Shown here piece by piece: positions 1,296-43,025 of a stretch of 64,000 nt of DNA. Numbering within the stretch: position 1 is the first letter of the stretch; each line of letters starts with the position of its first letter. Under the pieces are notes generated by a model. The model saw only the letters and a program-made list of their open reading frames with translations, was not told the DNA's origin and ran no database searches. Location: positions 4,402,001 through 4,466,000 of the forward strand of contig NZ_JBBPCL010000001.1 of assembly GCF_038039215.1 (NCBI RefSeq), written 5' to 3'. The position numbers and the translations under genes are program-made. Source of the stretch: Pseudonocardia sp. T1-2H. Its GTDB lineage: Bacteria > Actinomycetota > Actinomycetes > Mycobacteriales > Pseudonocardiaceae.

Positions 1296-1365
1296 CCTAT
1301 CGGCCGATCACCCGCCGACGGCCGCGACCGGCAACCGTGGTTCCCGGTGCCGGGATGAAGGGTCG

Positions 1366-3737: not shown

Positions 3738-3816
3738 GATCTACTCCTTCCGATCGATGCTCCTGACAGGAGGCATCGGGACCATTCCTTCGCACGGGGT
3801 ACCCCGACGGAGGGTT

Positions 3817-4197
3817 GTGACCACCAGCTGCCCTCGCGAGGCCTTGCTCGCGGACATCGACGCGCGGAAGACGGTCGTGCTAGCCGTTCTCGACGAGCTC
3901 GGCCGCAGTGCGGACGAGCTGTCCGCGTTGTCCGCGATTCCGGTCAAGAAGGTCCGGGCCCTGCTGCGCACCCAGCGCCGCAGCACCTCGGCGCCAGCCG
4001 AACCGGCCGTCCCGGCGGTGGTGACGAGGGACAGCCGAGACAGCCTTTCCCCGAGTCGGGCAGGGCCTCCGCGCGTCCCCGTCCGGACCTGCAGGCCGCG
4101 GACGGGCGTCGGTTCGCAGGCCGCGGCCGGCCCAACGACGACACCGGCAGGCGGGAAGGCGGCCACCGCGCGGTGGCCGCCGTCCTCGGCTGCGTAG
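3817..4197 (+). CDS. Small hypothetical protein, basic C-terminus
   Basis: This is a possible 126-residue protein from GTG, with 'ggagg' four bases upstream. The first 50 residues look like a helical nucleic-acid-binding module ('RKTVVLAVLDELGRSADEL' then 'AIPVKKVRALLRTQRR'). The rest is Pro/Ala/Arg-rich and could be non-coding read-through. I recognise no family. It is divergent from the acetate transporter. The helical part is the main argument for a real gene. Confidence 0.35.
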   Translation: MTTSCPREALLADIDARKTVVLAVLDELGRSADELSALSAIPVKKVRALLRTQRRSTSAPAEPAVPAVVTRDSRDSLSPSRAGPPRVPVRTCRPRTGVGSQAAAGPTTTPAGGKAATARWPPSSAA

Positions 4198-4614
4198 TCA
4201 CCGCAGGGGCCCGCCAGCTCGAGGGCGAGTTCGCGCTCCTCCTCTCGGGCCCCGCTCCTGGGACCGGCGCTGCAGTACCGCCGTGGTCGCCGGCTCGATG
4301 CCCAGACGCTCGAAGGCGAGGCGAGCCGTTCGCTCACCGTCCACCCGGGCCTCGAGCGCAGCCCCGCTGATCCTCTCCTCGGCGGAGCAGATCGAGCACT
4401 GCGACTCGTCCATTCCGCACTCGCGGGTGTGATCGTCGGTTTCACGGCTTCGGGCGCAGCCGCTCGGCCAGCCGTGCGGTCTCCTGCACCACGGCGACCG
4501 GGGTCAGGGACCGCAGCTCCTCGGGGTCCGCGCCGATCGATCCGGACCGCCGGCGCGCGTAGAGGATGCGGCGACGCGGCCGGACCGCTCGGGCCCGGCC
4601 GCACTCGCCCTCCG
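4198..4614. other. Unresolved stretch with two short gene-like frames
   Basis: Two minus-strand frames look partly protein-like. One, at about 4198-4413, begins 'MDESQCSICSAEERISGAAL'. The other ends at TGA 4442-4444 and reads 'SLTPVAVVQETARLAERLR'. Neither has a convincing ribosome site or a recognisable family, and the second has no start. They may be ends of decayed genes at the edge of the copper operon. Confidence 0.3.
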
Positions 4615-5085
4615 CTACAGCGCCGTACCGCGCACCGCGCGCTCCGCGCGCAGCCCCGACCGGCGTCCGCCGACCAGCCCGAACCCGTACGCGGCCGCGA
4701 TGTAGGCGGCGACCAGGAGATCCCAGCTCACGCAGGAGACCGGGTAGGCCTCGGGCGTGAAGGAGCGGCCCGGGCCGACGTGGTGCAGCAGCATGTCCCA
4801 CACCGGGTGCAGGGCCCACCCCGCCGCGAGCCACATCGGGGAGCGGCGGATGCCGAGCACACCCATCCCGCCGTAGATGGCGATGCCGACGACCTCGCCG
4901 ATCAGCCAGGCGGTGCCCGCGTCCGCGCGTGAGGCGAACATGAGGTAGAAGAAGGCGGCCGCCACCAGGACGAAGGCGAGCCAGACGCGCCCGATGACGT
5001 CGTGGACGAAGCGGGACAGGACGAAGGCGACGAGGGACACGACGGCGCCGCCGATCGCGCCGTTGATGAGCCAGTCGAGTACCAC
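4615..5085 (-). CDS. Small integral membrane protein (DUF6010-like)
   Basis: The protein has 156 residues and four to five hydrophobic segments, including 'AFVLVAAAFFYLMFASR' and 'LIGEVVGIAIYGGMGVLGIR'. The conserved-looking polar stretch 'ALHPVWDMLLHH' lies between helices. Size and pattern resemble small actinobacterial DUF6010 membrane proteins, but I make that match from memory with low certainty. It starts 27 bases after the copA stop, so it is probably the last gene of the copper operon. The paired His residues could bind metal, which is inference. Confidence 0.6.
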   Translation of the reverse strand: MVLDWLINGAIGGAVVSLVAFVLSRFVHDVIGRVWLAFVLVAAAFFYLMFASRADAGTAWLIGEVVGIAIYGGMGVLGIRRSPMWLAAGWALHPVWDMLLHHVGPGRSFTPEAYPVSCVSWDLLVAAYIAAAYGFGLVGGRRSGLRAERAVRGTAL

Positions 5086-5112
5086 GGTGGTTCCTTCCAG
5101 GAGGGGGCCGGC

Positions 5113-8100
5113 TCAGCCGGCGGTGACGGTGAACGGGGCGGTGATGACGGAGCCGTCGGCGAGCCGGAACTGGGCCCACAGGCGGTATGTGCCGGGGGCG
5201 GCGAAGCGGGCGTGGAAGCCCAGCTCGGGGCCGAAGGTCTGGCCGGGCAGGGCGAACACCGGGTCGCCCTCGGCGTCCTCGACCTCGGCGTGGCCGTGGG
5301 CGAAGGCGCCGCCATCGGCGCGCAGGGACACGACGTGCCCGGCGGCGGCGAGGTAGGGCTGCAGGTCGTCGACGGGGCGCCCGGTGGCGGCGTCGGCGAA
5401 GGCGAAGCGGAACTCGCTCTCCTCCCCGGCGCGGGAGTCGCCGCGCAGGGTGACCCGCACCCCGGCGACGACCACCTCCCGTGGCCCCTCGAGCACGGGC
5501 TCGGCGGCCGGGGCCGGTCCGGCGACGACGACCTCGTGCGCGTCGACGACGTCGTTCATCTCGCCCTGCCGGCGGAACTCGGTGTGGATCGCGTACCGGC
5601 CCGGGGTCGGGAACACCACGTCGACGGCGAGCTCGCCGGGACGGCCGGTGGGCTCGGGGTGGACGTGCGCGAACGTGGCGAGGTCGGCGCGGGTCGCGAT
5701 GAGGTGCATCCACGCCTGGTGGCTGCGGACGACGTCCTCGACGGGCGCGCCGTCGGCGGTCCGGGCGGTCGCCACGACCCGGGTGGGCTCACCGGGGCGG
5801 GCGTCGGCGGGGACCTGCAGGTCGACCCGCAGGCCGGCGTCGTGCGCGTCGACCGGGTCGACGTCGGTGGTCATCATGACCGACATCGCGGTGCGCATCG
5901 GCATGCCCGTGCTCTGCATCCAGGCCAACACGCCGTTCATGCCGCGCTGGGCGAAATCGGCGCGGGACAGCGCGGTCAGCCCGGCTCCGACGGCGAGCGC
6001 GACGGCCGCGACGGCGAGCAGGTAGCCGTAGTCGGCCAGCCGCGTGCGCAGCGGCGGGCGCAGGATCTCCGCGATCCCGGCGGGCGGTGCGAACCGGCGC
6101 AGCCGCAGCGCGTTGCTGACCACGCTGACCGAGCTCATCGCCATCGCCGCGGCGGCGAGGACCGGGTCGAGCAGCAGGCCGTCCCACCAGTACAGCGCGC
6201 CGGCCGCGACGGGGACGAGCGCGAGGTTGTAGCCGAACGCCCAGCCCAGGCCCTGCCTGATCGTGCGCACGGTGCGGCGGGCCAGCGCGATCGCGGAGAC
6301 GATGCCGCGCAGGTCGCCGCCGACCAGGGTGATGTCGGAGGCGGCGATGGCGACGTCGCTGCCGGTGCCGATCGCGATGCCGAGGTCGGCCTGCGCCAGG
6401 GCGGGGGCGTCGTTGATGCCGTCGCCGACCATGGCCACGACGTGCCCGTCGCGCTGCAGCGCGGCGACCCGCGCGGCCTTCTGGTCGGGCAGCACCTCGG
6501 CGATCACGTGCTCGATGCCGACCTCGGCGGCGACCGCGGCCGCGGTGGCGGCGTTGTCGCCGGTCACCATCCACACCTGCAGCCCGAGGGCCTCGAGCTG
6601 GGCGACCACCTCGCCGGACTCGGGCTTGACCGGGTCGGCGACCACGACGAGCCCGGCCGCGGCGCCGTCGACCGCGACGAACATCGGGGTGCGGCCCGCC
6701 TCGCCGGCCGCGGTGGCGTCGTCAGCGAACGCGGTGACGTCGACGCCGTCGCCCGCCATCAGGGCGCGGTTGCCGGCGAGCACCCGTCGTCCCGCGATGG
6801 TGGCGGTGACCCCGTGCCCGGGCACGGCCTCGAAGGACTCCACGCGGGGCAGGCTCAGCCCGCGGTCGCGGGCGGCGGTGACGATCGCCTCGCCGAGCGG
6901 GTGCTCGCTGCCGATCTCGGCGGCCGCGACCAGCGCGAGCAGCTCGTCGGCCGCCCAGTCCTGGGTGCGGACGTCGGTGACGGTGGGCCGGCCGCGGGTG
7001 ATCGTGCCGGTCTTGTCCAGGACGACGGCGGTGAGCCGCCGCGTCTGCTCCAGCGCCTCCCCGGAGCCGATGAGGATCCCGAGCTCGGCGCCCTTGCCGG
7101 TGCCGACCATGACCGCGGTCGGGGTGGCGAGCCCGAGCGCGCAGGGACAAGCGATGATCAACACGGCGATCGCGGTGCCGATCGCGAGGGTCAGCCGGCC
7201 GGTGTCCGGGCCGAACGCCGACCACCCGGCGAAGGTCGCGGCGGCGAGCACCAGCACGGCGGGGACGAACCAGCCGGAGACCCGGTCGGCGAGCTGCTGC
7301 ATCGGCGCCTTCGCGCCCTGGGCCTCGGACACCAGCCGCACGATCTGGGCGAGCGTGGTGTCCTGCCCGACGGCGGTGGCGCGCATCACGATCGAGCCGG
7401 TGCGGTTGAGGGTGGCGCCGATGGCCCGGTCGCCCACGACCTTCTCCACCGGCAGGCTCTCGCCGGTCAGCATGCTTTCGTCGACGGTGGTGGCGCCGTC
7501 GGTGACGACCCCGTCGACGGGCACCTTCTCGCCGGGCCGGACCCGGACCAGGTCGCCGACCACCACCTCGTCGACCGGGATGTCGACCTCGTCGCCGTCA
7601 CGCAGCACCCGCGCGGTCTTCGGCGCGAGGCCGACCAGCGCGGTGACGGCCGCGGTGGTCCGCTTCTTCGCCCGGGCCTCCAGCCAGCGCCCGAGCAGCA
7701 CCAGCGCGATGATCACCAGCGAGGTCTCGTAGTAGACGTGCAGCGGCAGCCCCCACCGCTCCGCCGCAGCGGGCCACAGGGTGACGAACGCGCTGTAGCC
7801 GTAGGCGACAGAGGTGCCGAGGGCCACGAGGGTGTTCATGTTCGTGGCGCGGTGCCGGGCAGCGGCCCACGCCGCGGCGTACACCGCCCGGCCCGCCCAG
7901 AACTGCACGACGGTGGCGACGACGAGGATGGCCGGCATCAGCCAGTCCATGGCGTCGATCGGCAGCGGGACGTACATCAGCACCATCAGCCCGAGCCCCG
8001 CGGCCAGGGCGACCTGCCAGCGGCGGGCGAGCCCGGCGAGCTCGGCGTCGCGGTCGTCGCCGTCGTCGGGCTGGGCCGGGCGCTCGGCACGGGGAGCGGG

Positions 8101-8328
8101 TCCGCGGACGGTGCCGGTGTACCCGGCGGCCGCGACCGCGGTGGTGAGCTGCGCCGGCGTGACGAGGGCGGGGTCGTAGTCGACGGTGGCGACCTCGGTG
8201 GCGAGGTTGACCTGCGCGTCGGCGACGCCGTCGACCCGGCTCAGGGCCTTCTCCACGCGGCGGACGCAGGAGGCGCAGGTCATGCCGCCGATGTCGAGGG
8301 TGCATGTGGTGAGGGCGGGGGCGGTCAC
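5113..8328 (-). CDS. copA: Copper-translocating P1B-type ATPase with fused C-terminal His/Met-rich domains
   Basis: The protein has 1,071 residues. I start it at GTG 8328, which overlaps the stop of the upstream gene (GTGA); the frame is open further upstream but that part is not protein-like. An HMA domain has the C18-x-x-C21 motif ('GMTCASC'). The membrane copper motif is C394-P-C396, the phosphorylated Asp is D438 in 'DKTGT', and the hinge is 'GDGIND' at 635-640. After the usual last helices there is an additional hydrophobic segment at about 766-787. About 255 further residues follow, with two repeats carrying 'FAHVHP' and 'FAHGH' and ending '[10 protein letters not shown]'. These resemble secreted copper-resistance domains. 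It exports Cu(I). The fusion is unusual. Confidence 0.93.
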
Positions 8329-8750
8329 GACCGCACCTCGCAGTGGTGGCCGGTGTACTCGGCGCGGCGCAGCAGCATCGCGGCGGCCATCGCGGGCAGC
8401 ATCAGCACGTGCCCGCCGATCATCATCGTGCCGGTGGAGATCAGCCCGGCCCACATCGGCGGGAACAGCACGACGAACGGCAGGTACATCGAGGCGGCCA
8501 TCTCCAGCGTGGCCGGCCAGCCGTGGCCGCGGAACCGCATCCACGCGCACATGGCGATGGACATGTTCGTGGCCATGACCAGTGCCATCGGCTCGGGGGC
8601 GTGGAGGAACGCGGTCCAGCCGAGGGCGTCGCCGGCGAGGGACCACAGTGGTCCGAGGGCGACCATGCCGATCACCATCGCCACGACCATCTCCAGGTAG
8701 TGGCGGACGAAGTGGCCGGTCGGGGTGGTCGGGCGCAGCAGGGTCTTCAC
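8325..8750 (-). CDS. Met-rich four-helix membrane protein of the copper operon
   Basis: The protein has 141 residues from GTG, with 'aggag' seven bases upstream. Four hydrophobic segments are visible and they are rich in methionine, for example '[17 protein letters not shown]' and '[20 protein letters not shown]'. The C-terminus has '[10 protein letters not shown]'. I know similar small proteins beside actinobacterial copper ATPases, sometimes misannotated as flagellar FliP, but no function is established. The Met, His and Cys residues would suit Cu(I) handling in the membrane, which is inference. Its stop overlaps the copA start, implying translational coupling. Confidence 0.75.
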
Positions 8751-8797
8751 GGACAGGCTCCTGTTCGGGGGAGGGGTGATGTACGCGCGGCGGGTGG

Positions 8798-9031
8798 TCA
8801 CGCGGCGCGCGGAGAGGTCCGCCGGGACCCGGCGGCGGTGGTACGCAGGTCGGCGGTGATCCGGTCGGCGGCGTCGCGGCCGACGAGCCCGAGCAGCGCC
8901 GAGCCGCGGCTGGTCTGCCAGTGCCGGCCGATCGCGGAGAGGCCGGGGGCGGGGGTGAGGCCGCGCTCGTGCAGGTGCCATGCCACGGCCGGCCCGGCCC
9001 CGACCACGGCGACGTCCAGGACCGGGGTCAC
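8798..9031 (-). pseudogene. Flavin-dependent monooxygenase relic with an in-frame internal deletion
   Basis: The 77-residue frame starts at a GTG overlapping the copZ stop. It begins with the FAD-binding start of a flavin monooxygenase ('[11 protein letters not shown]', 'AWHLHERGL'). It then jumps directly to a segment typical of the C-terminus of the same family ('[20 protein letters not shown]'). The whole middle of a roughly 350-400-residue enzyme is missing, so the product cannot be an oxidoreductase. The frame stays open, so a short peptide may still be translated within the operon. Confidence 0.6.
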
Positions 9032-9228
9032 GGCGCGACCTGGTAGCCGGCGTCGGCGATGGCGGCGCGCACCTGCTCGGGTGCCGCCGCGCCGGACACG
9101 TGGACGGTCGTGGTGGCCAGGTCGACCTGGACGGCGGTGACCCCGGCGACGTCGCCGACGCTGCTCGAGATGGCGCGGACGCAGTGCTCGCAGGTCATGC
9201 CCGGCACCCGCAGCTGCAGTTCTCCCAC
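9028..9228 (-). CDS. copZ: Copper chaperone CopZ-like heavy-metal-associated domain protein
   Basis: The protein has 66 residues and a single HMA fold: 'GELQLRVPGMTCEHC' followed by 'VRAISSSVGDVAGV' and ending 'IADAGYQVAP'. The CxxC pair binds Cu(I) for delivery to the ATPase. I start it at GTG 9228, with 'gagagg' about seven bases upstream; the longer open frame upstream is not HMA-like. It is the first gene of the minus-strand copper operon. Its stop overlaps the next frame by GTGA. Confidence 0.88.
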   Translation of the reverse strand: MGELQLRVPGMTCEHCVRAISSSVGDVAGVTAVQVDLATTTVHVSGAAAPEQVRAAIADAGYQVAP

Positions 9229-9654
9229 GGGAGGTTCCTCTCTCCGGTGGCGGTCGCGGACCGACCGCCTGGGATCGAGGTTCAACGGGGGCGCTGTCCC
9301 GCCCCTGTCCCGGCGCTGTCCGGACGATCTCGTGCCGGACAGGCCGGGACAGGCCTAGCCGCCCTTGTCTTCCGTATCGTCACCGCGCCGGCGCCCCACC
9401 CGGCGATCTCGCCGCGGATCGGCAGCCAGTGGTAGGGGATGAATGCGGCGATCACTGCCACCCCGAGAGCAGGGATCACGAGGCCCAGCAGGGTTCCGGT
9501 GGCGATCCAGGCGAGGGCGAGCCGGCGTCGACCTTCCCGTTCCGCGAACAGGTTCCGACACCGCCCGAGTGTGCGGGACCGGAGGCCGCTGCACGCGCAG
9601 CCGAGCGGGTGCGTCGACCGCTCGAACCCGTTGCCTACGCACCGACCTGCAGGC
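9229..9654. other. Promoter region of the copper operon and a hydrophobic frame of unclear status
   Basis: The stretch lies upstream of copZ and downstream of the SARP gene. A minus-strand frame reads 'LALAWIATGTLLGLVIPALG' followed by 'VAVIAAFIPYHWLPIRG', a plausible membrane segment, but it has no usable start and its ends are not protein-like. It may be the remnant of a small membrane protein. I could not identify a copper operator with confidence. Confidence 0.35.
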
Positions 9655-12600
9655 TCACCTCCCGGAGGCCACCGGATCAGCGTCGATGGCGCGTCCCTGC
9701 GCGAGGGCCCTCGCGAAGGCCTCCTCGCCGAGCAGCGCCGTCGCGCCGGCGCAGGCGCGGTCGGCGTCGGCCTGCTCGACGGCGTCGGCGGGCCGCTGGG
9801 TGCGGTCCCGCTCGGCGGCGGCCGCGGCGAGCATCCGGGCCGCCTCGAGCCCGTCGCCGCCGGCGGCCGCGACGCAGGCCAGTCCCTCCAGCGCGGCGGG
9901 CCGGGCGATCGGGCCGCCGAGTTCCAGCGCGCGCCGGTGGGCGGTCTCCGCGGCGGCGAGATCGCCGGAGATCTCGAGCACGTGACCGAGCTGGGTGAGC
10001 AGCGTGGCCGCCAGGCCGCTGATCCCCGCGGCGACCAGCTGGTCGGCGGCGGCGGCGAGTGTGTCCCGGGCGGCGGCCAGCTCGCCGCGGCGGCGGGCCA
10101 CGATGGCGCGCGCGAGGGCGGCGAACGCCGCGCCAGGGCCGGTGCCGAGCCGCCGCGCGGTGTCCTCGGCCTGCGCGCACAGGCGCAGGGCGCGGGCCGG
10201 GTCGCCGGACAGCAGCGCGCAGTAGGCCAGGTCGGCCTGCATCCACTGCAGGGTCAGCAGCAACCCGAGCTCGGCGGCGATCGCGGCGGAGCGCTCGATC
10301 ACCGGCACGGCATCGGCAGTCCGCCCGGCCCACCGCAGTGCCGTACCGAGGTGGCCCAGCACCGCGGACTGGCCCCACCCGTCGCCGAGCTGCGCGAAGC
10401 CGGCCGCCGCCTGCTCGGCCAGCCGCTCGGCGTCGCCGAACGGGATGGTCCGCGCCCGGAACCCGATCTCGGCCCGGACGAACGCGGCCAGCGCCAGCCC
10501 CCACGCGTCGTCGGTGCCGCGCAGCGCCTCCTCCGCGGTGGCGAGCAGCTGCTCGGCCCCCTCCGGGTCGGCCCCGCCGACGCCTTCGACGGCCAGCAGG
10601 ACGCGCGCGTAGGCCGCCGGCTCCGCGGCGCCCGCCTCCTCGGCGGCGGCCAGGCTCGCGGCCGCCTCCTGCGCGCAACGGGCGCTGGGGTGCACCACGC
10701 ACGCACCGGGCCGCCACACCAGCGAGGCCGCCTGGTGGGCAACGGCGCGGGCCGCGGGCGACCCGCCGACCGTCACGCCCAAGACGGCGTCGACGAAGCG
10801 GCGGCCCTCGTCGTGGCGGCCGAAGTACCACCACCAGCCCAGGGCCCCCACCAGCCGCAGGCCCACGTCCGGTGCGTCGGTGGCATGCTCGAGCGCCCAC
10901 GCCAGCGCCGCATCGATGTTGTCGCGCTCCGCGCGCAGCCGCGCCAGCGCAATGTGCTGGCCGCAGCTGCGCAGCTGCGGGGCGGCGGACTCGGCGAGGG
11001 CCAGCACCGCCTCGGCGTGCCGGCGGCCGACCGCGGCGCGCTCGCCGGCGGCGTCGAGGAGCCGCCCGGCGTAGGCACGCACGGTTTCCAGCATGCGGAA
11101 CCGGCCGTCGCCGCCGTGTGCGCCGACCACCAGCGACCGGGCCACCAGCCGGCCGAGCACGTCCAGCACCGTGCCGGCGCGCAGCGGCGCCCCGGCGCAC
11201 GCGGCCTCCGCCTGCTCCAGGGTCCAGCCCCCGCGGAACACCGCCAGGCGCCGGAACAGGACCTGCTCGTCGGCGTCGAGCAGGGCGTGGCTCCAGTCGA
11301 GGGTCGCCTGCAGCGTGCGGTGCCGCGCGGCCGCCGTGCGCGGCCCGGCGGTGAGCAGCGCGAACCGGTCCGACAGGCGCTCGGCGATCTGCTCGACCGG
11401 CAGGACCGCGACCCGGGCCGCGGCGAGCTCCAGCGCCAGCGGCAGCCCGTCGAGCCGGCGGCAGATCTCCGCGACCGTGCCGATCGTGGACCCGTCGAGC
11501 ACGAACGCCGGGTTCACCGACCACGCCCGCTCGGCGAACAGCCGGATCGCGTCGTTGGCGGCCAGCTCGTCCGCGCTCGCCCCGGCCGGCGGGACGGGCA
11601 GCGGTCGCACCGGGAGCTGCACCTCCCCGGGCACCGCCAGGGGTTCGCGGCTGCTGGCCAGCACGTGCAGCGACGGGCACCCTGCGAGCAGCCGCTCGAC
11701 CAACGCGGCGCACGCGTCGACGACGTGCTCGCAGTTGTCCACGACCAGGAGCAGGTGGCTGCCGTGCAGGGCGGCGGTGAGCCGCTCGACCGGGTCGACC
11801 GCGGCGTCGCCGGCCAGCCCGAGCGCGTCGAGCACCGCGGCCGGGGCCCGGGCCGGGTCCTCCACACCGGCCAGCTCCACCAGCGCGACCCCGTCGCGGA
11901 ACCGGTCGGCCACCGCGCGGGCCGCCTCGGTGGCGAGCGTCGTCTTCCCTGCGCCACCCGGCCCGGTCAGGGTGACCAGCCGCCGCGCCTGGCACAGCGT
12001 CGTCACCCGCTCCAGCTCCTCGTCGCGCCCGAGCACCGCGGTCAGCCGCGCGGGCAGCGACGCCGTGGGGCGGGGCGCCGGGGCGGGCGGCGCGGCGAGG
12101 TCGGGATTCTGGCGAAGGACCGCGTCGCGCACCGCCTCCAGCTCCGGCGACGGGTCCAGCCCGAGCTGATCGGCCAGTGATCGGCGGAGATCGGCGTACA
12201 CCTCCAGCGCCTCGGCCTGCCGCCCCGCCTGGTACAGCGCGGTCATCTGCCGGCCGCGCAACCGCTCGCGCAGCGGGTGCGCGGCCACCAGCGGCTCCAG
12301 CTCGGCGAGCACCTCGGCGCCGCGACCGGCGGCCAGCCGCAGCTGCGCACGCTCCTCGATCGCAGTCAGTCGCAGCTCGGCCAGCCGGGCCTGCTCGAGC
12401 TCGGCCCAACCGCTGCCGGAGAACTCGTCCAGCGGCTCACCGCGCCACAGTCCGAGCGCCTCGGTGTAGAGCTGCTCGGCCCGGCGCGGGCCGGGCTCCC
12501 GCCGGGCCCGCTCCACCAGCTCCGCGACCCGCAGCGCGTCCACGCGGTCCGGCCCGACCGCGAGCAGGTAGCCCGGGGCGCGGGTCGTCACGACATCGGC

Positions 12601-12837
12601 GGCGCCCGCCGCCGCGAGCACCCGCCGCAGCTTCGACACCCGTGTCTGCAGTGCGTTGCCAGGGTCGTCCGGAAGCTCGGCGCCCCACAGGTCGTCGATC
12701 AGCCGCCCCGCCGACACCACCTGCCCGGCCCGCAGCGCCAGCAGGGCCAGCAGGGCCCGCTCACCGGCGCGGCCGACGCTGCGGACCTGCCCGTCCAGCA
12801 CCACGTCGACCGGGCCGAGGACCCGCACCTCGATCAA
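9655..12837 (-). CDS. AfsR/SARP-family regulator with BTAD and ATPase domains
   Basis: The protein has 1,060 residues. I start it at TTG 12837 ('IEVRVLGPVDVVLDG'), because the upstream open frame contains ABC-transporter debris. A winged-helix domain (about 1-90) is followed by a bacterial transcriptional activator domain (about 95-245). An NB-ARC type ATPase follows, with Walker A 'GPGGAGKTT' (K298) and a Walker B-like 'LLLVVDNCEHV'. Helical TPR-like repeats fill the remaining 450 residues. Such proteins activate secondary-metabolite or stress genes after ATP-dependent oligomerisation. No biosynthetic cluster is adjacent, so the target is unknown. The frame is intact over 3.2 kb. Confidence 0.9.
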   Translation of the reverse strand: MIEVRVLGPVDVVLDGQVRSVGRAGERALLALLALRAGQVVSAGRLIDDLWGAELPDDPGNALQTRVSKLRRVLAAAGAADVVTTRAPGYLLAVGPDRVDALRVAELVERARREPGPRRAEQLYTEALGLWRGEPLDEFSGSGWAELEQARLAELRLTAIEERAQLRLAAGRGAEVLAELEPLVAAHPLRERLRGRQMTALYQAGRQAEALEVYADLRRSLADQLGLDPSPELEAVRDAVLRQNPDLAAPPAPAPRPTASLPARLTAVLGRDEELERVTTLCQARRLVTLTGPGGAGKTTLATEAARAVADRFRDGVALVELAGVEDPARAPAAVLDALGLAGDAAVDPVERLTAALHGSHLLLVVDNCEHVVDACAALVERLLAGCPSLHVLASSREPLAVPGEVQLPVRPLPVPPAGASADELAANDAIRLFAERAWSVNPAFVLDGSTIGTVAEICRRLDGLPLALELAAARVAVLPVEQIAERLSDRFALLTAGPRTAAARHRTLQATLDWSHALLDADEQVLFRRLAVFRGGWTLEQAEAACAGAPLRAGTVLDVLGRLVARSLVVGAHGGDGRFRMLETVRAYAGRLLDAAGERAAVGRRHAEAVLALAESAAPQLRSCGQHIALARLRAERDNIDAALAWALEHATDAPDVGLRLVGALGWWWYFGRHDEGRRFVDAVLGVTVGGSPAARAVAHQAASLVWRPGACVVHPSARCAQEAAASLAAAEEAGAAEPAAYARVLLAVEGVGGADPEGAEQLLATAEEALRGTDDAWGLALAAFVRAEIGFRARTIPFGDAERLAEQAAAGFAQLGDGWGQSAVLGHLGTALRWAGRTADAVPVIERSAAIAAELGLLLTLQWMQADLAYCALLSGDPARALRLCAQAEDTARRLGTGPGAAFAALARAIVARRRGELAAARDTLAAAADQLVAAGISGLAATLLTQLGHVLEISGDLAAAETAHRRALELGGPIARPAALEGLACVAAAGGDGLEAARMLAAAAAERDRTQRPADAVEQADADRACAGATALLGEEAFARALAQGRAIDADPVASGR

Positions 12838-12944
12838 ACGCCCTGCCTCTCGCGCCTTGCAGCCACCGGCCGGTCCCTGAACGCCACAACCTCGGACCAA
12901 CCATAGGCACGGCGGTGGCCGCGAAGGCGCACCCCGTGGCGGAC

Positions 12945-13196
12945 GGCTCAGCGCGTAGAGGGTGCGGACGAGGTCCTCGATGGAGGGCTCGTCCACCGAC
13001 ACGTCCTGCAGTGCCACGCACCGGGCCACGGCCGCGATCAGTTCGGCCGCCGTCGTGCCCGTCGTGAACTCCAGCCGCTGGCGCAGCCCGTCCGCCTCGA
13101 CGGTCACATCCACCAGCTCTCGGCGAGCGGCAGGTCCCACCACAGCTGGCTGCGCTGGCCGAAGACGACGCCGATTCGGCGGGCCAGCCGACCTGG
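12945..13196 (-). pseudogene. ABC-2-type transporter ATP-binding protein relic
   Basis: Two pieces of one ABC ATPase lie next to each other in different frames. The first piece reads 'RRIGVVFGQRSQLWWDLPLA', the Q-loop region of the multidrug/ABC-2 ATPases. The second reads 'RLEFTTGTTAAELIAAVA' and ends 'EPSIEDLVRTLY', the typical C-terminus. The signature motif, Walker B and about 150 residues between them are missing. The Walker A half is also absent. It cannot encode a working ATPase. Its open frame runs on into the SARP gene and makes that gene look longer than it is. Confidence 0.6.
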
Positions 13197-13476
13197 TGCT
13201 GATGAGGCATCTGCTCAACGGGCCGCCCGACTCAGCTGAGACGGCGCGTGCCGTGCGTACGGCGAATGCCCTTGCTTCGGCACCTCGAATCCCGATCAGG
13301 TCGGCGGCACGCACCCGCACCTCTGGTCCTGCGGGCACCCTCTCGGCGCAGGGCGAGCGACCCCGCCGCCCAGCCGCGGCCAGAGGCCGCACGGGCAGAT
13401 TGAGCATGCCGCGGCAAGGGGCGATCGAGACCTACGTCGAAGTCAGCCCGCCGCAGCGTCCAAGTCAGCTCAGCTG

Positions 13477-35659: not shown

Positions 35660-36505
35660 TCACGACGGTCGCGGGCGGTGCTGGGCGAGGCGGCGGCGAC
35701 AGATCAGGGCGCCGGCCAGCGACAGCAACGCCGTGATGGTGGACTCGCAGCGGTCGTAGCGCAGCGCCAGGCGCCGGAAATCCAGCAGCCAGGACATCGT
35801 GCGCTCGACGACCCAGCGGACCCGCCCAAGGCGAGTGGAATCCTCGATCCCGCGCCGCCCGATCCGCACCCCGATCCCGCGACGGGCCAGGTAGCGCCGA
35901 CAACGGGGGTAGTCATAGCCCTTGTCGGCATGCAGCTTGCCCGGCCGCCGACGGGGACGACCCGGCCATCCTGCGCGTTCGCGGACGCCCGGGTTGGTGT
36001 CCAACAACTTCGCGAGCATGCGGCTGTCGTGGGTGTTCGCGCCGCTGACCAGGGCGTGCAGCGGCAGCCCGTTGCGGTCGCACAGCACGTGGTACTTGCT
36101 GCCGGCCTTCCCGCGATCGGTCAGCGACGGCCCGGTGGCCTCACCGCGCCGCTTGGCCCGCACGCTCACGCTGTCCACCGCAGCCCGGGACCAGTCCAGC
36201 AGATTCTGCTGGGCGAGCCGGTCGAGAACGACCCGGTGCAGCCGCTGCCACACCCCGGCGTCCTGCTACTCGCGCAGCCGCCGCCAACAGGTCACCCCGG
36301 AGCCACACCCGAGCTCCTGGGGCAGGTCGTTCCAGCTGATCCCGGTCCTGAGCACGAACACGATCCCAGCCAGCGCAGCACGGTCCGGCACCCGCGGCCG
36401 CCCGGTCCGTCCTCGCTCCGCCGGCCGAGGCTTCCGGATCAGCGGTTCCACCAGCTCCCACAGCTCGTCGCTGACCAACCGCTCGACACAAGATCGTCTC
36501 GCCAT
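35660..36505 (-). pseudogene. IS5-family DDE transposase with a nonsense codon
   Basis: The frame from ATG 36505 reads 'LVSDELWELVEPLIRKPRPA' and 'LRTGISWNDLPQELGCGSG', then meets TAG at 36266-36268 after 'WRRLRE'. It continues in the same frame ('WQRLHRVVLDRLAQQNLLDW', 'DRGKAGSKYHVLCDRNGLPL', 'HADKGYDYPRCRRYL', 'RVRWVVERTMSWLLDFRRL') to the end at 35660. Homologues have Trp at the stop position, so a single base change (TGG to TAG) explains it. The full protein would have 281 residues. The DDE core is otherwise complete. Confidence 0.88.
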
Positions 36506-36553
36506 CGACAGCGATGATCAGCAACGGGCGCGGATCCACACAGGACCGACACG

Positions 36554-36573
36554 CCGACTTCTGAAATGACGTC
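36554..36573 (-). repeat. IS right inverted repeat
   Basis: This is the exact reverse complement of the 20-base left repeat at 34974-34993, followed by TAA. A diverged copy (tacttctgaaacgacgtc) lies at 40126-40143, also followed by TAA. Confidence 0.9.
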
Positions 36574-37147
36574 TAAACCAGACTGGCCCCTGCCCACCCG
36601 CGGCGGCGGGGTCGGCGATCGCCTCCAGGTCGCCATGCGGTCGCGGGGCCCTTGGAGGGCCGGCCGCCTCGCGCCTCCCAGTTGGCCTCGCCCGCGCCTG
36701 CCGCCGGCCTGGCTGGGGCCCTCGGTCCCCGCCCGGCCACGCCGGCATCGCCACCCCGGTTCTCGACGAGCCCCATGACGTCGACGACGAGCCCGAGGCC
36801 GCCGCGGAGCCCGAGCCCGGGGCCGGGGCCGGGGCCGGGGCCGGGGCCGCAGGTCAACCCAACGACGACGGGCCTGGCACGGAAGCCCCCTCCAAACGGG
36901 CGTATCTGCAGCTCGCGACGGGTAAGCCTATTCCCAATTTCCAAATCTATGGGCCATCCGGGGGCAAGTGTGTGGGCCATGCGCGCGGACCGCGTCACGA
37001 CGGAGGGTGGAATTAACTAGGCGAATCGCTACAGGCGTATCCGTGATTTCGACGATGCAGCGCTGGCGGGCGCCCCGTTTGACTGCATGACGTCGGGTCG
37101 AGTTACCGGTAGGCTACTTGCCCGGGGCGATCCGGACGGGAGACGCG
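36574..37147. other. Spacer between the IS and the Dyp cassette
   Basis: The stretch contains a GGGGCC tandem repeat. A plus-strand frame runs to TAA at 37014-37016 ('YLQLATGKPIPNFQIYGPSG'). This frame has no start and is dominated by the repeat, so I do not call it a gene. Base composition falls sharply after about 36900. The cassette promoter should lie at 37020-37140 but I cannot define it. Confidence 0.4.
36819..36848 (+). repeat. GGGGCC hexanucleotide repeat, five copies
   Basis: Five perfect tandem copies of GGGGCC give 30 bases with regular G4 tracts. Such a tract can form a G-quadruplex. In one frame it would encode Gly-Ala repeats. Confidence 0.9.
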
Positions 37148-37708
37148 ATGCCAACGACCGATCACGACTGGATCAAACCCGCGGCGATGGCCATTCCTAA
37201 GGAGGGCTACTTCGAGCTTGAGCGGGGCAGGTACGGCCCGATCTACCCCAGGACACCGGCGTGTTACGGGTTCTCGATCATCGCGAAGGTCAAACCGGGC
37301 CGCGAAGAAGCCGTTCGGGCGCACGGAAAGGAGATCGAGGCCACGATAGCCGCTAGCCCCAATGCGCTGGCCCCGCTGCGGCTGCATTATCTGCGTTGGC
37401 TGCTGTTTGATGTGGGCTTCGGACTGCATTTCCAATATCAAGGCATCTTCGACACCGATTTCGACAAGTACACCGAGGATGCAGTGGAGCTGTTCAGCCA
37501 AACCGGCATCACCACTGTATTCACGAACCTCGAAGGGTTTCCCGAGGACTGGAAAACAAACCCCGAGGCATTCGTCATGTTCGTTCGTGAACATCATTTT
37601 CCGAGCTTCCTGGAGTACGGAGAATACCCCTACGTCACCTCGGATGAGATCAAGAAAGCGCTGCGGCTGAAGGCGGCGTTCTCGGACATGCTCGATCAGA
37701 TGCAGTGA
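37148..37708 (+). CDS. Dyp-cassette protein 1, alpha/beta-barrel-like, unknown function
   Basis: The protein has 186 residues from ATG, with 'ggga' six bases upstream. A segment beginning 'YGFSIIAKVKPGREEAVRAH' and one reading 'LRLHYLRWLLFDVGFGLHFQ' followed by 'GIFDTDFDKYTEDAVELF' resemble the ferredoxin-like half-barrel seen in Dyp peroxidases and related proteins. No heme ligand pattern is obvious. It is the first gene of a three-gene unit: 19 bases separate it from the Dyp gene. GC content is far below that of the neighbours. The fold call is inference. Confidence 0.7.
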   Translation: MPTTDHDWIKPAAMAIPKEGYFELERGRYGPIYPRTPACYGFSIIAKVKPGREEAVRAHGKEIEATIAASPNALAPLRLHYLRWLLFDVGFGLHFQYQGIFDTDFDKYTEDAVELFSQTGITTVFTNLEGFPEDWKTNPEAFVMFVREHHFPSFLEYGEYPYVTSDEIKKALRLKAAFSDMLDQMQ

Positions 37709-37727
37709 CCGCACCAGGGCGTGCGCC

Positions 37728-39047
37728 ATGCTTGAGCTCGATGACATCCAGCACATCCTCCTGACCCGGACGCCCGCGATGACAGGGCGCTATGAGTTTC
37801 TGTCGTTCGATGACCCCGCCGGCGGCCGGGCCTGGCTGGCGGAGTTGCTCGACCGGGTGCAGTCCGCCGCCGCCGTGCGAGCCACGATGGACAGCTCTCA
37901 ACGCTGGATCACGTTGGCGTTCACCTGGAACGGTCTGCGGGCGCTCGGGGTGCCCGAGGAATCACTGGCGAGCTTCCCGGAGGAGTTCCGGGAGGGCATG
38001 GCCGCTCGCGCCGACATCCTTGGCGACACCGGCGCGAACCACCCCGACAACTGGGTGGGTGGTCTTGCGAGCGAACACCTACACGCGATCGCTATTTTGT
38101 TCGCACGCACCGATGCCGAGCACCTGCGGTGCACAGGAGAACACGACAAGCTGGTCGCGCGGTGCGCTGGCGTGCGGGTGCTGTCTTTTCTGGATCTCAA
38201 CGCCACGCCCCCGTTCAATTACGCCCATGACCACTTTGGGTTCCGTGACCGGTTGTCGCAGCCGGTGATGGAGGGATCGGGCGAGGAGCCGACGCCGGGA
38301 TCGGGTGCACCGCTGAAGCCGGGCGAGTTCATCCTCGGCTACCCCGACGAGAAGGGGCCGCCCACCGGCCCGCCTCAGCCGGATGTGTTGTCCCGCAATG
38401 GCAGCTACCTAGCCTACCGGCGGCTACAAGAACACGTCTCGTTGTTCCGCGACTACCTGCGCGAGTATGCCGACTCACCGGAAGAACAAGAACTGCTCGC
38501 CGCTAAGTTCATGGGCCGCTGGCGCAGCGGCGCGCCGTTGGTGCTGGCACCTGCACACGACGATCCAGAGCTCGGCGCGGATCCCATACGCAACAACGAC
38601 TTCAACTACAGAGAGATGGATCCGCACGGCTATGCGGTGCCGTTGGGTGCGCACACGCGTCGCCTCAACCCACGCGACACCGCAGTGAACATGAATCGCC
38701 GCAGGATGATTCGCCGTGGCGCCACCTATGGACCGGCCTTGGCGGAAGGTGCACCCGATGATGGGGCGGACCGTGGCATTGCCGCATTCATCATCTGCGC
38801 CAGCCTGGTTCGCCAGTTCGAGTTCGCGCAGAACGTGTGGATCAATGACCCAACATTCCACGAACTCGGCAATGAGCGCGATCCCATCATCGGCACCCAG
38901 GACGGCACACTGGAGTTCACAATCCCGAATAGGCCCATCCGCAAAGTCCACAAAGGGCTGCCAGCCTTCACCACCCTGAAGGGCGGAGCGTACTTCTTCC
39001 TGCCCGGGCTCAAGGCGCTGCGATACCTAACGACGCTCAACGGTTAA
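37728..39047 (+). CDS. Dyp-type heme peroxidase
   Basis: The protein has 439 residues. The conserved 'GTQDG' motif (the GxxDG signature, D392) lies near the C-terminus. The proximal-histidine region 'PLGAHTRRLNPRDT' (H309) and 'RRRMIRRGATYGP' are typical of dye-decolorising peroxidases that bind heme. There is no signal peptide, so it acts in the cytoplasm unless exported with a partner. It oxidises substrates with H2O2. The gene is the middle of a cassette with two uncharacterised proteins and lower GC than the chromosome around it. Confidence 0.9.
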   Translation: MLELDDIQHILLTRTPAMTGRYEFLSFDDPAGGRAWLAELLDRVQSAAAVRATMDSSQRWITLAFTWNGLRALGVPEESLASFPEEFREGMAARADILGDTGANHPDNWVGGLASEHLHAIAILFARTDAEHLRCTGEHDKLVARCAGVRVLSFLDLNATPPFNYAHDHFGFRDRLSQPVMEGSGEEPTPGSGAPLKPGEFILGYPDEKGPPTGPPQPDVLSRNGSYLAYRRLQEHVSLFRDYLREYADSPEEQELLAAKFMGRWRSGAPLVLAPAHDDPELGADPIRNNDFNYREMDPHGYAVPLGAHTRRLNPRDTAVNMNRRRMIRRGATYGPALAEGAPDDGADRGIAAFIICASLVRQFEFAQNVWINDPTFHELGNERDPIIGTQDGTLEFTIPNRPIRKVHKGLPAFTTLKGGAYFFLPGLKALRYLTTLNG

Positions 39048-39058
39048 GAGGAATCACG

Positions 39059-40075
39059 ATGAGTACGCTTCCCGCTGCACGTACCTATAACCAGAACCAG
39101 GTTCCCCGCAAGCACACACCGGGGCAGCGGCGCATCAGCATCTACTGGACCTGGAGTTATCCCTGGGAAGCCCAACGCGATCCCGCCGAAATGTACAACC
39201 GCTTCTCTACGATGACCGAAGTTCGCAACGTCTTGTGGCCCAGCTACGAGACCCCTGAGTACGATGCGGCGCACTTCCTGCAGGGCATCGCCGGAACACT
39301 GGAGCTGTTCCACCGCTCGACGTTGGCTTTCCAAGAGCTGGCCGGTGAAGCTACCGGCCACCCGGTCGCTGTGTTCCAGCGCATCGACCAGGCGGGCTAC
39401 AAGCTGCCGATCGACGAGCGGGTCCTCGCCGATACCGACACTCTCATGGTCTTCGGGCTTGACCACATCCTCTCCGAGCAAGAAGCCGCACCCGAGGAGG
39501 TCAGCGCGATCCGTGAATGGTTGCAGAAGGAAGGCACGTGCCTCCTGCTGGCTCCGCATCACGATGTCGGCTTCACCGACGATTTCACCCAGCGTCAGGT
39601 TGAATACCAACACCACGGCGACGCACTGGTTCCGCGCCAACAACGTTTCGGCCAGTACACCCGCTCGCTGATGGAAGCGCTCGACGTGCCGGTTCACAAC
39701 AAGTGGGGGCTACGTCCCGCTGTCGTCGAGGGCACCAACGAGATCGCACCGCTGACCGCGTTTCGTGATCTGGACCCAGCGAGGCTGCTCGGCAACGTCA
39801 CCACGTTTAACTTCCATCCTCATCTGCCGCACTACGAACTCACCGCGCCGCAAAGTGACTCGGTGCGGGTACTGGGCCGCCAACGCATCGACCCCAACCG
39901 GCCCCACCCCTTCACCGAAGCAGGCAATACCGAATTCAACGCCCTTATCTGGATGCCGCCGGAAGGACAACGTGCAGGCGACATCGTCCTGGTCGACTCC
40001 ACCAACTTCACCACGCTCTTCGGCGGCACCGACAGCCTCAGGAACCTTTGGCGCAACCTCGCCACCATGAAATAG
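39059..40075 (+). CDS. Dyp-cassette protein 3, unknown function
   Basis: The protein has 338 residues from ATG, with 'aagagga' about eight bases upstream and 11 bases after the Dyp stop. It starts 'MSTLPAARTYNQNQVPRKHT'. A segment 'ADTDTLMVFGLDHILSEQEA' followed by 'IREWLQKEGTCLLLAPHHDV' looks like a Rossmann-like fold of the glutamine-amidotransferase type, but no catalytic Cys is placed. The histidines of 'APHHDVGF' and 'FNFHPHLPHYEL' could bind metal. I know no family with certainty. It must work with the peroxidase, given the tight spacing. Confidence 0.75.
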   Translation: MSTLPAARTYNQNQVPRKHTPGQRRISIYWTWSYPWEAQRDPAEMYNRFSTMTEVRNVLWPSYETPEYDAAHFLQGIAGTLELFHRSTLAFQELAGEATGHPVAVFQRIDQAGYKLPIDERVLADTDTLMVFGLDHILSEQEAAPEEVSAIREWLQKEGTCLLLAPHHDVGFTDDFTQRQVEYQHHGDALVPRQQRFGQYTRSLMEALDVPVHNKWGLRPAVVEGTNEIAPLTAFRDLDPARLLGNVTTFNFHPHLPHYELTAPQSDSVRVLGRQRIDPNRPHPFTEAGNTEFNALIWMPPEGQRAGDIVLVDSTNFTTLFGGTDSLRNLWRNLATMK

Positions 40076-40083
40076 CAGGCGCC

Positions 40084-40143
40084 ATGATCAGCATCGAGCA
40101 CTGCTCCATACCGGGCCGACACGCCTACTTCTGAAACGACGTC
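40084..40143. mobile_element. Solo right end of a related IS
   Basis: The 60 bases align with the right end of the 1,600-bp IS (about 36512-36573): 'atgatcagca', then 'ccgacacgcc', then a copy of the inverted repeat with two differences, and TAA after it. No transposase or left end is present. It lies directly behind the Dyp cassette. Confidence 0.75.
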
Positions 40144-40171
40144 TAAGCGGCTGACCAGGGCCTTCGGCAAG

Positions 40172-40213
40172 TGGGCGATACTGGGATCGAACCAGTGACC
40201 TCTTCGGTGTGAA
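40172..40213 (-). tRNA. tRNA-Val(CAC) 3' fragment, probable integration scar
   Basis: On the minus strand the sequence runs from the anticodon loop (TTCACAC) through the 3' anticodon stem CGAAG, a variable region, the T-arm 'ACTGGTTCGATCCCAGT' and the acceptor strand ATCGCCC plus A. The T stem pairs perfectly. The 5' half (D-arm, 5' acceptor GGGCGAT) is absent. A 3' tRNA half without the 5' half is the usual trace of site-specific integration into a tRNA gene. Confidence 0.75.
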
Positions 40214-40396
40214 CGCGGATGCGGTGGGATCTCGGCGCCCGGCTGGTGCCGTCCTGTGCCGTCTGATCTGGGGCTTCGTGCCGTCGAGTACCGACAGCTA
40301 CCGGACGCTGACGGTGGCCTCGCTCCGGAAATGCTCCGCTGCGGACAGGGTGTGCTGGCCGACGCCTCAGCTCGCGCAACCATGTGCCCAACGTCG

Positions 40397-40740: not shown

Positions 40741-41118
40741 CTACGGCCCCGGGACGAGGAACACGACGAGCACCAGGACCGCCACGGCCAGGAGGGTGAT
40801 GCCGAGCAGTACCGGAACCCGGGTTGGTGGCAGCTCGGCATCTCGGCGCATCGCGGTTTGTACTCGTTGCCAGCGCCGGACGGCCAGCGCCGCCAGAACA
40901 CCACCCCCAGCAGCGAGTAGCACGCCGAGGGCGTGCCGCCCTCCTGGAATTCCGAACTCCGGAACGAGCTGGACGACGGCGACGCCGCCGGCGATCAGCG
41001 CGAGCGCGGTCCGGATCCAGGCGAGGAAGGTCCGCTCGTTGGCGAGCGTGAAGCGGTAGTCCGGCTCCTGCTCGTCGCCGGCCACCTCGTGTTGTCGTTC
41101 CTGATCGGCCGGGTTCAT
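40741..41118 (-). CDS. DUF202 (YidH-like) membrane protein
   Basis: The protein has 125 residues. 'YRFTLANERTFLAWIRTALA' is the YidH/DUF202 signature, followed by three helices. Its ATG overlaps the stop of the molybdenum enzyme gene (ATGA), so the two are co-translated. This points to a membrane partner role for the enzyme, but that is inference. Confidence 0.87.
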   Translation of the reverse strand: MNPADQERQHEVAGDEQEPDYRFTLANERTFLAWIRTALALIAGGVAVVQLVPEFGIPGGRHALGVLLAAGGGVLAALAVRRWQRVQTAMRRDAELPPTRVPVLLGITLLAVAVLVLVVFLVPGP

Positions 41119-42305
41119 CAGCTCACAGAGTCCTCAGCGCGCTGGACGGCGCCGATCGATTGGTTGCGGCGTCCTCGTGCGACGGTTCGGCTCCGCAGAG
41201 CACGCATTGGAGATTCGACGCACACGGGGTGGGCCAGCACCGAAGTTTGGAGGTAGCCCAGCTCATTCCACGACGTGGAGTCTGGTTGGGTGTTGCCCTG
41301 GTCATCGGTGGCGCGTACCCGCAGCGTGTGTTCGCCGGGTGCCGGAGTCCAACTGAACTGCCAGCGCACCCACACCCCCGGCGTTACCGGCGAAGTGATC
41401 AACGCGTCCTGCCAAGGACCGTCATCGATGCGGTACTGGACCCTCTCGACCCGGTTCTCACCGGCGAACGCTCGTCCTCGGATCATCTGCGGTTCCGGCC
41501 GTAGCCGCGCCGGCCAGGGCAACTCCACCAGACTCGACACCGGGAGCGCGGTGATCGCCGGGCCACGTGCGGGCTCAGCCGCGGGGAAGTCCGGGCCGAT
41601 CAGCACGTAGTCCTCGGTGTTCCAGGGCACGTACAGGGGATGGTCGGAGACCTGGATCCGGCCCAGCCATTTGATGCTGGCCGCACCGAGCCACCCGGAC
41701 ACCACCAGGCGAGCCGGGAACCCGTGATCAGCCGGGAGCACCTCGCCGTTCATGGCCAACGCGACCAGGGTGTCGTCAGCACACGCCTTGGCCAGCGGCA
41801 CCGGCAGGCGAGCACGGATCTCGTCGAGTGATTCCGACATGACCTCGCACGCGCCGGGGGTGATCCCGGCCGGTTCCAGCAGGTCGCGCAGCCGGACGCC
41901 GGTCCACTCGGCGGTGCCGATCGCACCGCGCCCCCATTGAGTGCCCTCGAACGTGCGCCCGACTTCCTCACCGAACAACACACGGCGATTACCCGCACAC
42001 TCAATCGTGCGATTCACGGAAACCAGCGGAAAGCGATTCCACAGATCGTCGTAGGTGTAGGCGATCGGTTCGTGTACCCCATTGCCCTCGACCTGAAGTG
42101 TCCACGTCGCCGCATCCAAGTGCGGAGTGGGCGCGTGGCTGCGGAGGTAGAAGCGATCGGTCGGGGTGAGATAGCCCGGCATGCGGTCTGGTCGGGTCCC
42201 GTAGTCCAGGCCCGTACCCGCGTCCTCCATCAGCTCCTCGGGAGTGGCTTTGACGACTTTGGGGTCGGCTGAGGAGGCACCTGCCGCCGTAGTTCGGGCG
42301 CTCAT
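41118..42305 (-). CDS. Sulfite-oxidase-like molybdopterin protein
   Basis: The protein has 395 residues. I start it at ATG 42305, about ten bases after 'ggagg'. The molybdenum ligand is C103 in 'NRTIECAGNRRVLFGEE'. The fold marks 'GTAEWTGVRLRDLLEPAGI', 'PADHGFPARLVVSGWLGAAS' and 'KWLGRIQVSDHPLYVPWNTE' are clear, and a dimerisation domain follows ('GEHTLRVRATDDQGNTQPD'). There is no heme domain and no Tat signal, so it is cytoplasmic or needs a partner. It probably oxidises sulfite or a related substrate. About 30 basic residues after 'LAHPVCVESP' are unusual. Confidence 0.88.
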   Translation of the reverse strand: MSARTTAAGASSADPKVVKATPEELMEDAGTGLDYGTRPDRMPGYLTPTDRFYLRSHAPTPHLDAATWTLQVEGNGVHEPIAYTYDDLWNRFPLVSVNRTIECAGNRRVLFGEEVGRTFEGTQWGRGAIGTAEWTGVRLRDLLEPAGITPGACEVMSESLDEIRARLPVPLAKACADDTLVALAMNGEVLPADHGFPARLVVSGWLGAASIKWLGRIQVSDHPLYVPWNTEDYVLIGPDFPAAEPARGPAITALPVSSLVELPWPARLRPEPQMIRGRAFAGENRVERVQYRIDDGPWQDALITSPVTPGVWVRWQFSWTPAPGEHTLRVRATDDQGNTQPDSTSWNELGYLQTSVLAHPVCVESPMRALRSRTVARGRRNQSIGAVQRAEDSVS

Positions 42306-42759
42306 CGAATACATCTCCTCCCCACTCGCTGCGCAACCTTCGTGGTCTCTCGGGGTGACGGGGGTGCGACGACATCCATGACTGCGATAGTCGACTCTTG
42401 CGGGGGACATATCGTCACGGTCACCGCCCATCTGCGCTCCCGGTCAGCCGGACTCTGGACATACCCGCCAGCTGCAAATGCCTCGGGCCGGCTACCCAGC
42501 TGCTGCCATACCTCGGTGCGCAGAGGCAACCGACGACCGAGCCACCTGCGCGGGGAACCTCATCCTGAACGCGAACCTGCGGTGGCCCGATCAGCCCCCA
42601 TGACCGCCTCTTCTCCGAGCACGCGGCGCAATGGGTGGCCACCTGGAACACCGAGACCACGACCGCGGCCCTGGACAGCTCGATCATGCGCACCCATGTG
42701 CTCTCGCAATGGGCCCGGTGCAGCTCGGCAAGATCGACCACGTGCACCCCACCGTCACG

Positions 42760-43025
42760 CCCGGGTCCAGGACTGGTGCGCCGGCAACGGGGTCGAGTTG
42801 GTGTTCCTGCCGACCCACGGCTCGTGGCTGAACCGGATCGAGGCCGAGTTCGCCGCACTGCGCTACTTCGCGCTCAACGGCACCGACCACCGCTCCCACG
42901 CCGAGCAGAACACCGCCATCGCCGGCTACGTGCGCTGGCGCAACGCCCGAGCTCAACCGAAGGTCCACTTCGCGGTCGGGTCACCGATCCGGACCTGGAC
43001 CGATTACCCGGTCAAGGCTGCGTGA
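42760..43025 (+). mobile_element. IS630-family transposase C-terminal relic
   Basis: The frame 'VQDWCAGNGVELVFLPTHGS' followed by 'WLNRIEAEFAALRYFALNGT' and 'IAGYVRWRNARAQPK' is the end of an IS630-type DDE transposase and closes with TGA at 43023. Everything upstream in 42306-42759 is disordered between frames and I can name nothing else there. Confidence 0.7.

Follow-up and report, generated by a model that had tools for sequence, protein, structure and literature searches.

The 64,000-nucleotide stretch of Pseudonocardia sp. T1-2H DNA analysed here (contig NZ_JBBPCL010000001.1, positions 4,402,001 to 4,466,000), which we call the window, contains a cassette of three co-directional genes: gene 1 (g1), gene 2, which encodes a variant dye-decolorizing (DyP-type) peroxidase, and gene 3 (g3). 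The spacers between them are 19 and 11 bases long (Table 1). This bears out the tight packing described in the original prediction, which was made from the sequence alone. Our results point to the triplet as an undescribed enzyme system.

Table 1. Features of the cassette and its flanks, numbered from the first base of the window. IS, insertion sequence; ORF, open reading frame.
Feature	Position	Strand	Description
Gene 1 (g1)	37148..37708	+	186 aa, DyP-adjacent family, without Pfam or NCBIfam match
Gene 2	37728..39047	+	439 aa, DyP-type peroxidase, distal motif GFRDR, D174/H309/R329 kept
Gene 3 (g3)	39059..40075	+	338 aa, unnamed family, conserved H136, H168, H185, H186, H253, H255, H258 and H283
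IS4/5-type transposase, left neighbour	35660..36505	-	Two ORFs: 36266-36505, DUF4096; 35660-36253, DDE_Tnp_1
IS end beside transposase	36511..36576	.	Reference copy of 66-nt repeat
Solo IS end	40081..40146	.	83% identical to 36511-36576; begins six bases past the g3 stop
tRNA-Val(cac) 3'-region duplicate, 72 bp	40144..40215	-	Probable att end of an island of about 55 kb extending rightward

The triplet is conserved well beyond this genome. When one genome for each species (GTDB) was scanned with a g3 profile, 300 relatives were found, and we kept the best 80 by g3 score, which are close relatives by choice. A DyP gene was present with g3 in all 80 loci and g1 in 78; the two loci that appear to lack g1 (L058 and L091) lie on contigs that start inside the DyP gene, so that g1 is cut off. 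The DyP gene directly adjoined g3 in 78 of the 80 loci, and a single gene of about 1.4 kb intervened in L070 and L091. Gaps were short: at most 34 bases between g1 and DyP in 64 of 78 loci, and at most 46 bases between DyP and g3 in 78 of 80. The hosts were mostly Mycobacterium and Nocardia, which also hold the closest relatives of the window proteins among these loci (86-91% identity). Others were one Gemmatimonadota metagenome-assembled genome (MAG; L061) and Alphaproteobacteria MAGs (L070, L091 and L092). Three Nostoc plasmids also carry the triplet, with the gene order unchanged. The flanks do not travel with it; with the triplet and overlapping frames set aside, the best flanking ORF family was found in 29 of the 80 loci.

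Genome samples at other taxonomic depths agreed. Strong g3 matches numbered two in 198 genomes of the phylum and six in 150 of the order, and both neighbours were present each time. A marginal, partial g3 match in genome G150 had neither g1 nor a DyP beside it. In the family sample of 200 genomes, g3 was found only in T1-2H itself and in G484, and in 0 of 10 congeners listed. Median dN/dS values against the GTDB loci were 0.060 for g1, 0.100 for the DyP and 0.094 for g3 (four g1 pairs with saturated dS were left out). Thus, all three genes are under purifying selection across phyla, and the triplet is a real conserved unit that travels between very different bacteria, as had been foreseen. The original prediction would have been refuted by homologues of g1 and g3 occurring regularly without the peroxidase. 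Close g3 relatives were always found with a DyP, but distant ones (35-39% identity) occur without a DyP beside them. We rejected a phage origin, as there was no PHROGs match and the 72 and 27 pattern stretches found in viral contigs coded for no relative. We also rejected a role in anti-phage defence, as none of the three proteins matched a PADLOC family at E <= 0.01.

Base composition also sets the cassette apart. Its G+C content is 62.0%, compared with 70.7 +/- 2.6% in equal-sized segments elsewhere in the window. The lowest of those segments reached 66.9%, so the G+C plot, a check named beforehand, places the cassette below every one of them. Bases 37381-37440 are 48.3% G+C, in line with the figure of about one half noted earlier. 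The cassette lies 8.5 points below its own flanks (up to 10 kb per side). At the 80 other loci the average difference was 1.8 points and the largest 5.2 points below the flanks; the unit was below its flanks in 74 of 78 non-Nostoc loci and about 14 points above them on the two Nostoc plasmids measured. Across very different hosts the G+C content of the unit spans 54-69%. Because the gap is larger here than at other loci, the data fit a fairly recent arrival of the cassette in Pseudonocardia sp. T1-2H. Together with synteny across phyla and the near-absence of g3 from the family sample, the lower G+C content supports the earlier proposal of horizontal acquisition.

Gene 2 encodes an unusual DyP. 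It matches Pfam DyP_N at 30.6 bits (cut-off 27.5) and TIGR01413 at 86.3 bits, below the cut-off of 100.5; against the EfeB or iron-transporter DyP model (TIGR01412) it scored 19 bits for a cut-off of 428. The nearest solved structure is 8re2 (E 1.7e-109), with which the protein aligns over its own length. We take 8re2 to be DrDyP of Deinococcus radiodurans, since both the chain and the D. radiodurans gene have the motif GYKDM and the partner entry 8re3 has Gly at the last position. Aligned to the solved DrDyP chain, the distal motif of gene 2 is GFRDR (residues 171-175), not GxxDG. Distal Asp174, proximal His309 and distal Arg329 align with D189, H324 and R348 of DrDyP (the Arg by counting along the alignment), and all three are kept in 83 of 83 complete triplets (3 of 86 loci were left out of this count). 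Motif position 5 is Arg (R175) in 81 of the 83; the other two, with Gly, are from Streptomyces. Among 18 sister or B-type DyPs (defined below), the same position is Gly in 15, Ala in two (L011 and L158), Met in one (DrDyP) and Arg in 0. As DrDyP, L011 and L158 also depart from GxxDG, we filed gene 2 as a DyP variant despite its GFRDR motif. The motifs first assigned to this protein were therefore half right: the proximal His is present, whereas no GxxDG forms the distal motif, and GTQDG at 389-393 is a different site that lies past the proximal His.

By eye, gene 2 has no signal peptide and no C-terminal extension, and it ends just after a conserved PGLKALRYL segment. We rejected a role as encapsulin cargo because the sole PF04454 match in the genome (C1:3031547-3032314) is 1.4 Mb away and the protein lacks a C-terminal targeting extension. 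The same genome encodes a separate PF04261-type DyP (C1:536981-537445). DrDyP itself is reported to be low-spin and inactive at pH 7.5, and a Met-to-Gly change left its haem low-spin at that pH; its authors ask what triggers activity and propose other proteins as possible governors (PMC10820274).

The g1 protein belongs to a family that accompanies DyPs. No Pfam, NCBIfam or other named family was found for it. A 10-sequence alignment that includes the pre-DyP proteins of Rhodococcus, Deinococcus, Paracoccus, Acinetobacter, Bradyrhizobium, G189 and a second locus of our own genome has ten invariant residues (G30, H80, R83, D88, D102, D106, Y108, E129, P132 and P161). A g1 homologue lies directly upstream of the DrDyP gene in D. 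radiodurans. In pairwise comparison, window g1 is connected with this homologue through the second locus of T1-2H (L124): window g1 is 28% identical to the L124 protein (E 7e-11), which is 39% identical to that of D. radiodurans (E 3e-37). Genomes with a g1-family match had a DyP within 1.4 kb on the same contig in 5 of 5 cases in the phylum sample and 11 of 12 in the order sample, the twelfth match being marginal (E 4e-4). The second locus (G000:C1:2158000-2176000, bases 7533-13422) contains two g1-like genes that are 82% alike, a DyP with an intact GFRDG, a catalase-like gene and no g3 match.

The original prediction gave the 186 residues of g1 correctly, but the alpha/beta-barrel likeness found no profile support. 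Of the 10 family members, one hit the Pfam antibiotic biosynthesis monooxygenase (ABM) profile below its cut-off (14.2 bits for 23.1; E 0.051), and the window protein had no such match. The averaged Chou-Fasman pattern, a weak method, is compatible with a beta-alpha-beta-beta-alpha-beta core. The idea that g1 is a detached DyP domain was dropped after a profile comparison gave nothing.

Gene 3 represents a large family without a name. Of 8,000 candidates that were scored, 5,833 are relatives at E <= 0.001. No credible family match turned up in 94 members, no Pfam or NCBIfam match was found for g3, and the best PDB match was not credible (E 0.87); the earlier description of a 338-residue protein of no known family thus holds. 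In the 94 sequences, 53 positions are at least 97% identical, and these include 8 of the protein's 14 histidines (P 3.1e-4). The simplest reading is that the conserved histidines likely form a metal site. One distant relative follows a pyridoxal phosphate (PLP) decarboxylase gene; a DyP is annotated at a distance of about 7 kb. Others, on Rhizobium plasmids (L007, L135, L133 and L134), adjoin the DUF692 (MNIO) gene of bufferin-type operons; in L007 and L135 the g3 relative sits between the DUF692 and DUF2063-type genes. It is possible that g3 relatives are an extra component of these copper-related systems. What links the L007 and L135 operons with our cassette is this distant g3 relative (about 38% identity). 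They differ from it in being peptide-modifying, and no DyP or g1 is annotated in the stretches of L007 and L135 examined.

The triplet occurs in two arrangements. Arrangement A, found in the window, is g1-DyP-g3, and arrangement B, found on Streptomyces plasmids (L004 and L005) and in G484 (L138), is g1-g3-DyP. Both are tight clusters, and between the window and B the identity is 66-70% for g1 and 61-63% for g3, but 47-48% for the DyP, which in B is of another lineage and has an intact GYRDG in 3 of 3 cases. The window DyP is 38-47% identical to the DyPs that occur with catalase-like genes (catalase-type). In a tree of 39 of 41 loci (L070 and L006 were left out), A-type DyPs came out as a clade (100/100) with a long stem, and B-type DyPs were nested among catalase-type DyPs. 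A single clade of A and B DyPs was rejected by the approximately unbiased (AU) test (p-AU 0.0002; 33 rows, six more long-branch rows left out). The g1 sequences of A, B and L070 formed one clade at 100/99; with L070, a same-type locus with split frames, left out, the test of g1 A+B monophyly gave p-AU 0.067 and a log-likelihood 13.2 lower. Because the DyPs of A and B do not group and the g1 sequences of A, B and L070 do, there has been at least one exchange of the DyP in which g1 and g3 remained together. This makes g1 and g3 the stable core and the peroxidase the exchangeable part. In L070 (687-2591, an Alphaproteobacteria MAG), g1 and the DyP are each split over two frames, by decay or sequencing error.

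Some copies of the unit carry additional genes. The gap between g1 and DyP holds an insert of more than 300 bases in 14 of 78 loci; in eleven of them the insert codes for about 133 aa, and the one that was scanned (L025) matches SnoaL_3. The gene between DyP and g3 in L070 and L091 is an FAD-NAD(P) reductase ORF, of which the scanned L070 copy matches Pyr_redox_2. At 15 sister loci a g1-family gene and a DyP occur with no g3, and at eight of these a catalase-like gene is present as well (in Deinococcus, Rhodococcus, Paracoccus, Acinetobacter, our own second locus, G189, G317 and G330).

The closest described counterpart is the DrDyP (DR_A0145) unit of D. radiodurans, which consists of a hypothetical protein, the DyP and a catalase-family protein. 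DrDyP is the best solved relative of gene 2, position 5 of GxxDG is replaced in both, and a g1 homologue precedes each. The units differ in that the third gene of D. radiodurans is catalase-like and has no g3 match, position 5 is Met (Met190) there and Arg here, and the two DyPs are 42% identical. In the DtpA-GlxA pair of Streptomyces (PMC4736821), a DyP is likewise genetically tied to a partner metal enzyme. DtpA is Tat-exported and needed for a copper oxidase, whereas by eye no signal peptide is present in any of our three proteins. Encapsulin cargo DyPs also work with a partner protein; gene 2 differs from them in the two respects given above.

Based on these results, we propose that the cassette is an operon that spreads horizontally and serves a single oxidation, driven by peroxide, of a small molecule in the cytosol. 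In it, g1 would be an obligate partner of the DyP and g3 a metal-dependent enzyme. We hold this model tentatively, at a probability of about 0.42. The DyP would supply the haem oxidant. The g1 protein, probably of ferredoxin-like fold, may bind the peroxidase or its substrate, and it may render the DyP competent at cell pH. The g3 protein would then handle the product or the peroxide, occupying the place that a catalase-like protein has in several sister g1-DyP units. As SnoaL-like and FAD-NAD(P) reductase genes accompany some copies, the data suggest a small aromatic or quinone-like substrate.

Several points weigh against this model. The g1 fold and the g3 metal site rest on sequence patterns only, and the histidine test was made after the alignment had been seen. 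The Arg at motif position 5 may reduce peroxidase activity. Some DyPs scoring above 160 bits lack a neighbouring g1 match: two of 14 in the order sample (G338 and G275) and four of 10 in the phylum sample (G188, G042, G117 and contig 24 of G100). Seven of the 15 sister loci showed no catalase-like gene; of all 15, six are only 4-6 kb long. Distant g3 relatives belong to other operons, of the bufferin type and with a PLP decarboxylase. In the close set, the correlation between the distances of the three proteins is only moderate (r 0.49 to 0.68), and conservation near the g1 start in 84 sequences was weak and patchy, with no clear regulator motif. Finally, the literature searches made gave no expression or biochemical data on the triplet.

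The first alternative is that the actual enzyme pair consists of g1 and g3, with the DyP as no more than an exchangeable helper that supplies or removes an oxidant. The identities between the window and arrangement B speak for it, since g1 and g3 are much alike and the DyP is little nearer to its counterpart than to catalase-type DyPs. The g1 family as a whole, however, sits with DyPs even where no g3 was found, so the tie of g1 to the DyP is no weaker than that to g3. We regard this alternative as doubtful. Oxidative-stress defence, in which each of the three proteins would scavenge H2O2 or organic peroxides and g3 would replace the catalase-like protein, seems to us unlikely. The sister proteins DR_A0145 and DR_A0146, the latter catalase-like, are both reported to be raised after UVC/vacuum exposure (PMC5731708), which speaks for such a role. 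But DrDyP is reported inactive at physiological pH (PMC10820274), no family search tied g3 to catalases, and the SnoaL and reductase accessories are better suited to small-molecule chemistry. That unrelated passenger genes were joined by insertion sequences is scarcely credible: the cassette does have an IS and a solo IS end at its flanks and a lower G+C content, but the same order in several phyla, the short gaps, the variable flanks and purifying selection refute chance assembly.

Our model can be extended to a broader hypothesis. The g1 protein might found a general family that cytosolic DrDyP-type peroxidases need as obligate partners, being the missing factor for activity at cell pH. With g3 it might make up a core metal-enzyme complex of a new kind, which would accept different DyPs as its peroxide-driven oxidant. 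We think this extension improbable as a whole. What DyPs do in nature is unclear, and pure DrDyP is described as inactive at neutral pH (PMC10820274). The g1 family, found with such DyPs across phyla and directly before DrDyP, is a concrete candidate partner, open to test with two purified proteins, for peroxidases that appear inactive when studied alone. With g3 comes a large protein family for which the searches made gave neither a Pfam or NCBIfam match nor a solved relative.

The flanks of the cassette contain the three features that had been read from the sequence: an IS before it, a solo IS end behind it and a tRNA fragment (Table 1). ARAGORN and Rfam called no tRNA inside the window, and the fragment was recognized because its 72 bases are identical (72/72) to the tRNA-Val(cac) gene region 55 kb rightward in the same genome (G000:C1:4497450-4497521). 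Since this perfect duplication looks like the duplicated end of an island, an island integrated at tRNA-Val(cac) is probable. It would start at the right edge of the cassette and extend past the end of the window. The cassette looks to have been placed just outside its left end. Among the ORFs of at least 200 aa next to the tRNA gene (L125, bases 500-5200) there was no evident integrase, although no profile search was made there; one of them presumably encodes a flavohemoprotein. Within the window, the ORF at 42342-43025 resembles the end of an IS630-type transposase; the ORF scanned over the same bases, in another frame, had no match. To the right of the cassette, within the probable island, lie genes for a sulfite-oxidase-like molybdopterin oxidoreductase and a DUF202 protein (40741-42431).

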